DNA from: Polyangiaceae bacterium
GTDB lineage: Bacteria > Myxococcota_A > Polyangia > Polyangiales > Houyiibacteriaceae
Length of the DNA: 36,434 bases
NCBI GenBank assembly: GCA_027009115.1
Contig: JALVDI010000206.1
Span: 1 to 36,434 of the forward strand
Direction of reading: 5' to 3'
Part shown: positions 6,301-30,887 of the stretch, one piece after another
Layout of the letters: the number at the start of each line of letters is the position of its first letter
Numbering within the stretch: position 1 is the stretch's first letter
Program-made: the position numbers and the translations under genes
The notes under the pieces: generated by a model
What the model was told of the DNA's origin: nothing
Databases searched by the model: none
What the model saw: only the letters and a program-made list of their open reading frames with translations

Positions 6301-6881
6301 CGCGGCAGACCGTGCTCAACGTACCAGGGGAACAGCGCCCCTTCGAGGCGCTCCGCGTCGAGGGACTCGAGCACCCGCAGCACGACCTCCCGAAGGGGCC
6401 CCCTGTCTCGGAGCACGGCCCGCAGCTCGTCGCGAAACGCGCGCCCGAAAACCCTCCGCGGCTCGACCAAAGTCTGCCGGAAGGGGCGCCGGCTTCGAAA
6501 GGCGTGCTCGGCCAAGACGCGCTGGCAAAACCCGTGAATCGTCGAGATGGGCGCGCGGTCGAAGGCCACGAGGGCCTCGACGAGCCGAGCGCGGGTCGCC
6601 GCGTCGATCGTCCAGGCGGGCCCCTCCGGCGGATCGACCCGCGGGTCGTCGGACCGGGGATGCACGATTGCATCGAGGGTCTTGCGGACCCGGGCCCGCA
6701 TCTCCCGAGTCGCCTTCTCCGTGAAGGTCACCACGAGCACCTCGTCGAGCGTCGCTCCACCGATGAGGAGATCGACGAAGAGGTGCTCGAGGGTCCAGGT
6801 CTTCCCGGTCCCCGCCGAGGCCTCGATGACCGCCGGGCCCTTCGGGATCGCGTCGAGGATGGCCGGCCGCGCGAACCTCAT
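3342..6881 (-). CDS. recB: Exodeoxyribonuclease V subunit beta (RecB helicase-nuclease)
   Basis: UvrD-like helicase: 'VIEASAGTGKTWTLEHLFVDLL', 'VTFTEKATREMRARVR', 'YALVDEFQDTDAIQWRIFQRLF', 'VIGDPKQAIYGFRNAD', 'LLTMHKSKGLEAAVVFVLG'; C-terminal nuclease motif 'YFLDWKSDRLP'. Confidence 0.95.
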   Translation of the reverse strand: MRFARPAILDAIPKGPAVIEASAGTGKTWTLEHLFVDLLIGGATLDEVLVVTFTEKATREMRARVRKTLDAIVHPRSDDPRVDPPEGPAWTIDAATRARLVEALVAFDRAPISTIHGFCQRVLAEHAFRSRRPFRQTLVEPRRVFGRAFRDELRAVLRDRGPLREVVLRVLESLDAERLEGALFPWYVEHGLPRPAFERRAFERGLAALADATQLQRAVALVQGNVPRRDVAARICAELEALHGIAREHADDATLLDALLAVDVWGRREVVRGAPARTWLPARLAKQDLAEARRWVAELLDVATSPFGVLVHELLPRVRRRLEADKARQGWIDFDDMLRLVLEAIEGPSGEELVAALRLQHRYALVDEFQDTDAIQWRIFQRLFVDAADLGEGRALYVIGDPKQAIYGFRNADVHTYWRARVTLEEAGAPRVVLRENFRSTASLIEATNTIFAEDFFQGAIRYDEPVRCGDRSLRALDNAGRDAPSVCLWQPLGAEKPTVSDVRYTLAERCAREIRHLVEEQALHVAGREGERPLRYGDIFILTRNAREGLAVAEVLRAHGVPHAFYKQDGLFLTDEARDVLAVLRAVADPHDRSARMKAWLTPFFAVPLADLEACRELDPQHPLIGRLHRLRSLAERREGAGLLRALLEESGLARRLLFARQGERALTNYRHILEILLEESGGRRGVDELVALLEAFVDGRAQPVGGEGSVQRVESERSAVQLLTMHKSKGLEAAVVFVLGGFTRGGSASPYAPKVCHRGGEREAWLPPVPAEVDGRIAQEAREEDERLLYVALTRAVGRLYLPYFGMPPVSHGLEVGQRYEGLTGPYRWLSARLESLVAQGFVDGRRVTYESVPIVEPGHEERRDLEVGLLEKLPPVRPPERLDLRRLRREHLGYVLTSYTRMKGHEGGYVAPTLAEDDAPVEEFAADVRDAAGAEPHDLPGGAAMGVFLHGVLEDLDFSTLHRSDEPGAWAARPEVRRVFEQRARGSGIDEAHLPGAAELIFQALKTPQCFGGAQLEGGFAQIEAKVAEMSFHYPVPEPDHLPLGQPGPRPARRGIVRGVVDLVFDHEGRTYFLDWKSDRLPSGDPRTIAAHVAANYGLQAKLYTLGIVRLLEVRGEADLEARFGGLLYCFLRAMNGEGRGVHFERPSWAEILRWEEELRTSDRPWGYALRTELDR

Positions 6882-28325: not shown

Positions 28326-28339
28326 GAAGGGAAACCCCG

Positions 28340-28894
28340 ATGAAGATCTACACGAAGACGGGAGACCGCGGTCAGACGGGCTTGTTCGGAGGCGCGCGGG
28401 TGTCGAAGGCGACCGCCCGAGTCCGCGCCTACGGTGACGTCGACGAGCTCAACAGCGTGCTCGGGGTCGCCCGCGCGGGGGGTGTCCCCACCCCCGTGGA
28501 CGCCGTGCTGAGCATCGTCCAGAGCGAGCTGTTCGATGTGGGCGCCGAGCTCGCAACAGCCCCCGGGCGCAGCGCCCAAGGCTTCGCCCCAATCGACGAG
28601 CGAGCCATCGAGCGCCTCGAACGTGCCATCGATGAGGCCGTCGCGGCGCTGCCGCCGCTCAAGAGTTTCATCCTGCCCGGTGGTTGCCTTGGGGCGGCGC
28701 AGCTCCATGTGGCGCGAACGGTCTGCCGGCGGGCGGAACGCTCCGTCGTGGCCCTCGCCGACGACGAGGTCGTGCGCGACACGCTCGTCGTCTACCTCAA
28801 CCGCTTGAGCGACCTGCTCTTCGTCCTGGCCCGCCTCACCAACCAGGAGGCCGGATGCCCGGACGTCGAATGGAGAGGCCGCGCGCACCAATAG
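28340..28894 (+). CDS. Cob(I)yrinic acid a,c-diamide adenosyltransferase (PduO type)
   Basis: 'MKIYTKTGDRGQTGLFGGARVSKATARVRAYGDVDELNSVLGVAR', 'FILPGGCLGAAQLHVARTVCRRAERSVV', 'LNRLSDLLFVLAR'. Confidence 0.95.
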   Translation: MKIYTKTGDRGQTGLFGGARVSKATARVRAYGDVDELNSVLGVARAGGVPTPVDAVLSIVQSELFDVGAELATAPGRSAQGFAPIDERAIERLERAIDEAVAALPPLKSFILPGGCLGAAQLHVARTVCRRAERSVVALADDEVVRDTLVVYLNRLSDLLFVLARLTNQEAGCPDVEWRGRAHQ

Positions 28895-28896
28895 TG

Positions 28897-28924
28897 AAGA
28901 GCCGGCGCGTTGACGCCGGCTCTT
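28897..28924. terminator. Bidirectional terminator-like hairpin between the adenosyltransferase gene (+) and the 6S RNA candidate (-)
   Basis: Perfect 11-bp stem aagagccggcg(28897-28907) cgttga cgccggctctt(28914-28924); 3 nt after the adenosyltransferase stop. No long U tract on either side. Confidence 0.75.
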
Positions 28925-28925
28925 G

Positions 28926-29112
28926 GTCCTTACCGTGAGAGAGGAGGAGTGGTTTGAACCGAACCCCTACCATTCTGGTAGGTGGGTGCCGTGTCGCGCC
29001 GCTTCAGGCTTCCCAGTGATGCTTGCTGGGTCTGCACACCACGGGCGACTGAGCCCCCGGTTCGATGGAGTCAGGGATTCGTTTCGCTACCTCGCAAGCC
29101 ACAGAGGGACAT
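28926..29112 (-). ncRNA. ssrS: 6S RNA (SsrS) candidate
   Basis: On the minus strand, motif order matches E. coli 6S: GGTGTGCAGACCCAG[..]CTGGGAAGCCTGAAGCGGCGCGACACGGCACCCACCTACCAGAATGGTAGGGGTTCGGTTC, versus E. coli GGUGAGCAUGCUCGGUCCGUCCGAGAAGCCUUAAAACUGCGACGACACAUUCACCUUGAACCAAGGGUUC (recalled). Closing-stem complementarities GUCC/GGAC, GUG/CAC, GAGG/CCUC, GAACCG/CGGTTC. About 187 nt with its own promoter and a downstream hairpin. Confidence 0.8.
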
Positions 29113-29118
29113 AAAGAC

Positions 29119-29147
29119 ACCCTACGCACGCGGGCTGCCCCGGTCAA
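29119..29147 (-). promoter_or_regulatory. sigma70-type promoter for the 6S RNA candidate
   Basis: Minus strand TTGACC (29147-29142), 17-bp spacer, TAGGGT (29124-29119); predicted TSS A at about 29112. Confidence 0.65.
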
Positions 29148-29189
29148 CGGGCACGCGGGCACACAGGCGCACCGGTACCGCTCAGGGTC

Positions 29190-30887
29190 TCAGTCCTTCA
29201 CCGGTGTGGCCTTCAGAGCGGCCTTGCCGTTTTTCTTGTAAACGGTGAAGCGGACGCCCTTGGCACCGTGCTTGGCAACGATGGCGTCGCGGTTCTTGCG
29301 CAGCGTCTGGCTGAAGCGCTCGAAGGTGAGCCCCGCCGTCGGCTCGCCGCACGCGCGCTTCATGGCCACGAAGTCGTCGTAGACCTGACGGAAGTGGGCC
29401 TCCTCGTCGTCGGCCTCCGAAGCGGCGGCGAGAAGCTCCTCGGGGATTTGGGCGACCATCGTCTGCCCCTCGTCCTCGTCGAAGTCGTGCGCGAGCGGCG
29501 CCGCGGGCGCGGGGGGCTCCATGGCCGGCGGAGGCGGCGCAGGCGGAGGCGGAGGCGCAGGCGCGGGCGCAGCCGGTGGCGCTGCGGGCGCAGGCGCAGC
29601 GGGCGCAGGCGCAGGGGGCGCGGGCGCTGCGGCAGGCTCGGGCGCGGGCGGAATCTCAGCCGCCCCCCCCTCGTCCTGAGCGAAACCGAAGAACGGGGTC
29701 GAGCCGCCCCGCTCCGGCGCCGCACCGAGGATCTCGTCCAGATCCTTCGCGGGCTTCGCCGCCCCCGCGCCGGTCCCTGCGACGCGTTCGAGCCCCTGGT
29801 TGACGTCCTTGGCGATCTGCCGGTATCGGCGCGTCAGCTTCGTCTCGTCGAGACGCTGAAGCTGACCGCTGGCGAGCGCCTGTGCGACGTCGCGGAAGCG
29901 GCGATAGGGACGTACGTGCTCCAACCACATGAAGAGCAGTCCCAGCAGACCCAGGACAAGAGCGACCGCGCCCACCGCGATCCACGGCACGCTGTCGAGG
30001 GACTCCTCGTAGCGGAAGAGATCGAGCGGGGACGCGAGAGCGCTCGCCGGCCGTGTGATGACGTAGCCAACCTGAGCGTGGGAAGCGCTACCGGTCACCA
30101 GGGCGAAGATCCCGCGACCGCTCTCACCCACAGGCATCGGGTCCGTCCGCCCTTCGCTCGCGAGCGCCGGGTCTTCGAGAGCGCTCGCCAGGGCTGCCTC
30201 GATCTGGGGCGCCTGAGGCACCCCCTGGCCGGGCTCGATGTGCGACGCGAGCAGCCGCTCCCGGGCGAAGAAGCCCAGGCTGGCGCCGGGGATGCGCGAC
30301 GCGAGACGCGCCGTGAGCTGTGGGCTCACCTCCATGCAGTGGATGATGGCGCCGACGTAGCGGCCGCCGTCGATGACCGGGCGCGCCGCCACCCGGTAGA
30401 TGACCCCGTTGTAAAGGAGGACGTCGTCGGTGAGATAACCGCTGAGGGCGCGCTGCACGACGGGGAAGGCCCCAAGCCCCGCGCCCGCCGGAGGAGCGCT
30501 GCCCCCAAGCTGGGCGATGATCTCGCCTTGGGCATCGACGGCGAAGAGCAACTGCGCTGCTCCCTCCTGGAGCTGGGTGTTGAGCTCGGCGAGCTTGCGA
30601 CCGAGACCGTCGCGAAGGGAGCCCTCCAGCTCGCTGCGGTCGCGTCGGCTGCTCGCGCGCTGCAGCGCCGAACGCACGTCGCTGTTCGCCGCCATCGGGG
30701 CGATGTCGTCGAGGCGAGCCCTGGCGTCGTACCGGAGCCACAGCTCGAGCTCCACACGGTCACGGCGGAGCTGCTCCTCCAAGCGCGTGTCGTAGTTGCG
30801 GTTGATCTGGTCTTGCGCGATGAACGCGGCGGCGACTCCGGCCCCGGCCGCCACGGCGAGGAGGAAGTAGTAGAAGCGAGACAGCAT
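29190..30887 (-). CDS. Membrane-anchored sensor-like protein with periplasmic cache-like region, Pro/Ala-rich linker and conserved C-terminal domain (possibly MXAN_5187-like)
   Basis: N-term TM 'MLSRFYYFLLAVAAGAGVAAAFIAQDQ', second TM 'VPWIAVGAVALVLGLLGLLFMWLEHV', HAMP-like following segment, Pro/Ala-rich linker, C-term 'HFRQVYDDFVAMKRACGEPTAGLTFERFSQTLRKNRDAIVAKHGAKGVRFTVYKKNGKAALKATPVK'. Confidence 0.8.
   Translation of the reverse strand: MLSRFYYFLLAVAAGAGVAAAFIAQDQINRNYDTRLEEQLRRDRVELELWLRYDARARLDDIAPMAANSDVRSALQRASSRRDRSELEGSLRDGLGRKLAELNTQLQEGAAQLLFAVDAQGEIIAQLGGSAPPAGAGLGAFPVVQRALSGYLTDDVLLYNGVIYRVAARPVIDGGRYVGAIIHCMEVSPQLTARLASRIPGASLGFFARERLLASHIEPGQGVPQAPQIEAALASALEDPALASEGRTDPMPVGESGRGIFALVTGSASHAQVGYVITRPASALASPLDLFRYEESLDSVPWIAVGAVALVLGLLGLLFMWLEHVRPYRRFRDVAQALASGQLQRLDETKLTRRYRQIAKDVNQGLERVAGTGAGAAKPAKDLDEILGAAPERGGSTPFFGFAQDEGGAAEIPPAPEPAAAPAPPAPAPAAPAPAAPPAAPAPAPPPPPAPPPPAMEPPAPAAPLAHDFDEDEGQTMVAQIPEELLAAASEADDEEAHFRQVYDDFVAMKRACGEPTAGLTFERFSQTLRKNRDAIVAKHGAKGVRFTVYKKNGKAALKATPVKD
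29505..29655. repeat. Low-complexity GGCGCA/GGCGGA region encoding a Pro/Ala-rich linker
   Basis: Reiterated ggcggaggcgcaggcg...; encodes PAPEPAAAPAPPAPAPAAPAPAAPPAAPAPAPPPPPAPPPP. Confidence 0.8.

Follow-up and report, generated by a model that had tools for sequence, protein, structure and literature searches.

The window, the complete stretch of 36,434 nucleotides analysed, contains two convergent genes separated by an intergenic gap (Table 1). On one side, the gap is bordered by plus-strand genes, fmt and the gene for a cobalamin adenosyltransferase of the PduO type. The gene on the other side, previously described as sensor-like, was present and its 565-residue product was identified as a protein of the MXAN_5187 family (NF041620, 271.8 bits, cut-off 200). 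The gap of approximately 295 bp between convergent genes and the sequence strings quoted from it in the initial annotation were found on the minus strand as claimed. The conserved termini, GTCC at 29110 and GGAC at 28926, delimit a candidate RNA of 185 nt, slightly shorter than the 187 nt estimated before. Exactly these ends were matched by R1, a lineage model built from 26 sequences with the window among them. A promoter-like sequence was read directly upstream of the RNA, with TTGACC at 29147-29142 and TAGGGT at 29124-29119, and most homologues possess TTGACC and a TAnnnT-like box at the same place. The terminator-like hairpin, also read directly and folded as a perfect stem, is situated just past the stop codon of the adenosyltransferase gene on the opposite strand and may serve both strands; hairpins occur at the corresponding downstream place in most homologues. 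In an automatic consensus scan of the locus, neither the promoter-like sequence nor the terminator-like hairpin was called.

Table 1 Genes and sequence features at the candidate 6S RNA locus of the window
Feature	Position	Strand	Remarks
PduO-type cobalamin adenosyltransferase gene	28337-28894	+	flanks the gap
Intergenic gap	28895-29189		295 bp, between convergent genes
Terminator-like hairpin	28897-28924	-	stem of 11 bp, loop of 6 bases, weak T tail
6S RNA (ssrS), predicted mature RNA	28926-29110	-	GTCC to GGAC; based on RF00013, R1 ends and homologue ends
Conserved GAATCCCTGACTC	29068-29080	-	5' strand of the inner closing helix plus the beginning of the central bubble
Promoter-like TTGACC - 17 bases - TAGGGT	29119-29147	-	ends 8 bases before the RNA 5' end
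MXAN_5187-family gene	29190-30887	-	other flank of the gap

Matches to the 6S RNA family

A search of 401 bases with an E-value threshold matched positions 37-150 of the 6S model RF00013 to 28961-29080 on the minus strand (44.0 bits, E 8.9e-8). The gathering score of RF00013 is 46.4 bits, an annotation threshold and not a biological feature. The window scored 2.4 bits below it, thus a default annotation reports nothing at this locus, and the comparison of the whole window with Rfam at the thresholds of Rfam revealed no RNA match. Two further matches in the gap, to RF02344 (ar14) and RF01409 (STnc250), were weak, far below the cut-off, and were rejected, leaving 6S as the sole credible Rfam match. 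The genome of 5.4 Mb presented a single RF00013 match in a whole-genome search (E 2.8e-7) and no second candidate even at E values up to 10.

The central part of the gap was detected by DNA similarity in 42 of 97 related genomes. Homologous loci of the same family begin and finish with the same GTCC...GGAC as the window, and a GTCCCTCTG start and a GG..GGAC end were common to nearly all extracted loci. Over all 187 positions of the RF00013 model, same-family loci obtained 69.6, 55.3, 54.4 and 54.1 bits; another locus reached 51.1 bits over the model core only. Homologous loci of seven genomes were above the Rfam cut-off, and several of the above-threshold loci adjoin the same neighbour genes as in the window. 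The check with a 6S covariance model that had been proposed in the initial annotation thus failed at the threshold for the window itself (44.0 vs 46.4 bits), but succeeded for homologous loci of the same family. The 6S identity proposed there was supported by the significant RF00013 match, the homologues above the cut-off, the single candidate in the genome and the covariation described below. On this sequence evidence, the minus strand between the two conserved ends almost certainly represents the single 6S RNA (ssrS) gene of an uncultured Myxococcota bacterium.

Among the 290 genomes of the class, 233 had an RF00013 match, in 169 genomes above the cut-off. Of 94 relatives searched with R1, 84 had the RNA, with one locus per genome except for two each in G043 and G071. 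Strict filters were applied in both searches, so absences are partly a filter effect. The R1 score of the window, 159.5 bits, is not independent, the window being one of the 26 training sequences. The R1-positive genomes included close relatives, G018 to G025 among them, for which the RF00013 search gave nothing. In one genus of the same family, an apical motif GGGGGGCCU replaces GGGAAGCCU at twelve loci; strict-filter RF00013 searches reported no 6S RNA for many genomes of this genus, yet R1 found the RNA there. Two 6S matches per genome were observed for G043, G071 and eight members of the class. The pair in G043 had equal scores and is inverted, 2.2 kb apart on one contig (C83, 4257-4442 on the minus and 6681-6866 on the plus strand); it may be an assembly artefact. 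A pattern scan of genome contigs yielded 23 named records. All of them are metagenome assemblies, and almost every one carries the label Myxococcales, Myxococcota or Deltaproteobacteria; a Sandaracinus sp. and an uncultured Polyangiaceae are included. No paper devoted to the 6S RNA of myxobacteria was found in the literature searched.

Consensus structure and covariation

The folding energy of the 185-nt stretch was not exceptional in comparison to shuffled sequences (z = -0.61), and a longer stretch including the terminator hairpin reached z -1.59. Single-sequence folding energy alone would not have revealed this RNA; homology and covariation do. The alignment of 26 homologues gave a consensus structure of 45 pairs in eight helices. 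Paired cells amounted to 96.1 % in the alignment, 90.9 % in shuffles and 37-49 % with the 3' partners slid; the structure was derived from the same 26-sequence alignment and is therefore favoured over the slid versions. The weight of the argument lies on the pairs changed on both sides and on the RF00013 match, which is independent of the alignment. Thirteen pairs had changed on both sides, compared with 7.2 on average in shuffles. The covariation score was 0.203 vs 0.107 in shuffles; none of 500 shuffles reached the observed pairing, double-change or covariation values. Covariation in homologous intergenic regions, anticipated in the initial annotation, was hence present, and it keeps a rod-like fold of closing stem, central bubble and apical stem.

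These results bear on a reading without a separate RNA gene, in which the stretch is the 3' untranslated part of the MXAN_5187-family mRNA, or read-through from it, with chance hairpins. A same-strand gene ending 79 bases before the stretch and the unremarkable folding energy would fit, but the RF00013 homology and the covariation among the homologues speak against it, a conserved promoter-like sequence lies between the MXAN_5187-family gene and the RNA, and in a different family of the order, for example in G075 and G080, the RNA appears on the opposite side of that gene. We regard this origin as extremely improbable.

Most of the stems read earlier from the single sequence, GTCC/GGAC, GTG/CAC, CCCAG/CTGGG and CTACC..GGTAG, agreed with the consensus structure. 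GAGG/CCTC was kept in part, as helix 3 with 92 % of the cells paired. The proposed GAACCG/CGGTTC stem, which a single-sequence fold seems to favour, had only 64.7 % of cells paired across the relatives and was not supported; conserved in its place is GAATCCC..GGGGTTC (helix 4), with 99.5 % of cells paired and GAATCCC invariant in the 26 sequences.

The closing stem of the window RNA is weaker and less regular than in the relatives. Together with the score under the Rfam cut-off, this could indicate a decayed 6S gene, in which the RNA is still homologous but its weakened closing stem has ceased to allow binding of the polymerase. However, every position invariant in the relatives is intact in the window RNA, promoter-like and terminator-like elements are retained, and the genome has no second copy able to replace the gene. 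Decay is accordingly very unlikely.

Proposed function and gene neighbourhood

In resting bacteria, RNA polymerase is held by the small 6S RNA. The RNA associates with the sigma70 holoenzyme in stationary phase; outgrowth brings its release, as a product RNA made on the 6S RNA rearranges the fold of the latter (PMC10406553). The locus in the window, with a promoter-like sequence and a terminator-like hairpin of its own, would give rise to a 185-nt RNA that folds as a long bubbled rod and imitates an open promoter. As judged from the family, this RNA would bind the RNA polymerase holoenzyme with the housekeeping sigma factor when growth stops, and would be released when the polymerase copies the 5' strand of the RNA's central bubble into a short product RNA. 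When aligned with the 6S family, the sequence predicts a product RNA start opposite U38 (29073), and the product should begin with AGGGAUUC. CTACCAGAATGGTAG would correspond to the hairpin described on the 3' side of this bubble in the 6S RNAs of E. coli and B. subtilis. In summary, the locus is an ordinary 6S RNA, a further instance of a well-known RNA, whose transcription, association with polymerase and use as a pRNA template are predicted from homology. Its biological role would be that of the expected global regulator.

The MXAN_5187-family gene adjoins the RNA in most genomes of the same family. It was again close in other families of the order, the 6S RNA often being located upstream of the gene start, not downstream of the gene end. 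The C-terminal domain of the protein was present in 285 of the 290 class genomes, whereas 14 control genomes all lacked it. In other groups, 6S RNA commonly has conserved neighbours within a family (PMC8414754), thus the proximity need not mean a functional link. The gene may be seen as a companion of 6S RNA on either side within the order, and a functional tie of the protein to 6S RNA or to the stationary-phase switch appears unlikely.

The identification fills an annotation gap: judged by the Rfam threshold, this genome would appear to have no 6S RNA. In a genus of the same family, RF00013 is often blank where DNA similarity and the lineage model find the RNA. The lineage alignment could be used to repair the RF00013 family model.

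Comparison with known RNAs

The window RNA resembles the 6S/SsrS family RF00013 in length (185 nt vs 187 model positions), in the closing stem and the central bubble, in an apical stem with a GGGAAGCCU..AA motif, in the CCCACCU 3' bubble strand and in the conserved GAAUCCC/GGGGUUC helix; it differs in a less regular closing stem and a score just under the curated threshold. The motifs match those of E. coli 6S RNA (ssrS) in order and spacing, as stated in the initial annotation. The neighbourhood is different: the window has the MXAN_5187-family gene and fmt/adenosyltransferase, whereas ygfA is the neighbour of ssrS in E. coli. Ms1 RNA of Actinobacteria is a structurally related small RNA that also binds RNA polymerase, but in the form of the core enzyme, from which the primary sigma factor is absent (PMC9130861). 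In contrast to Ms1, the window RNA has its sole credible Rfam match in 6S RNA.
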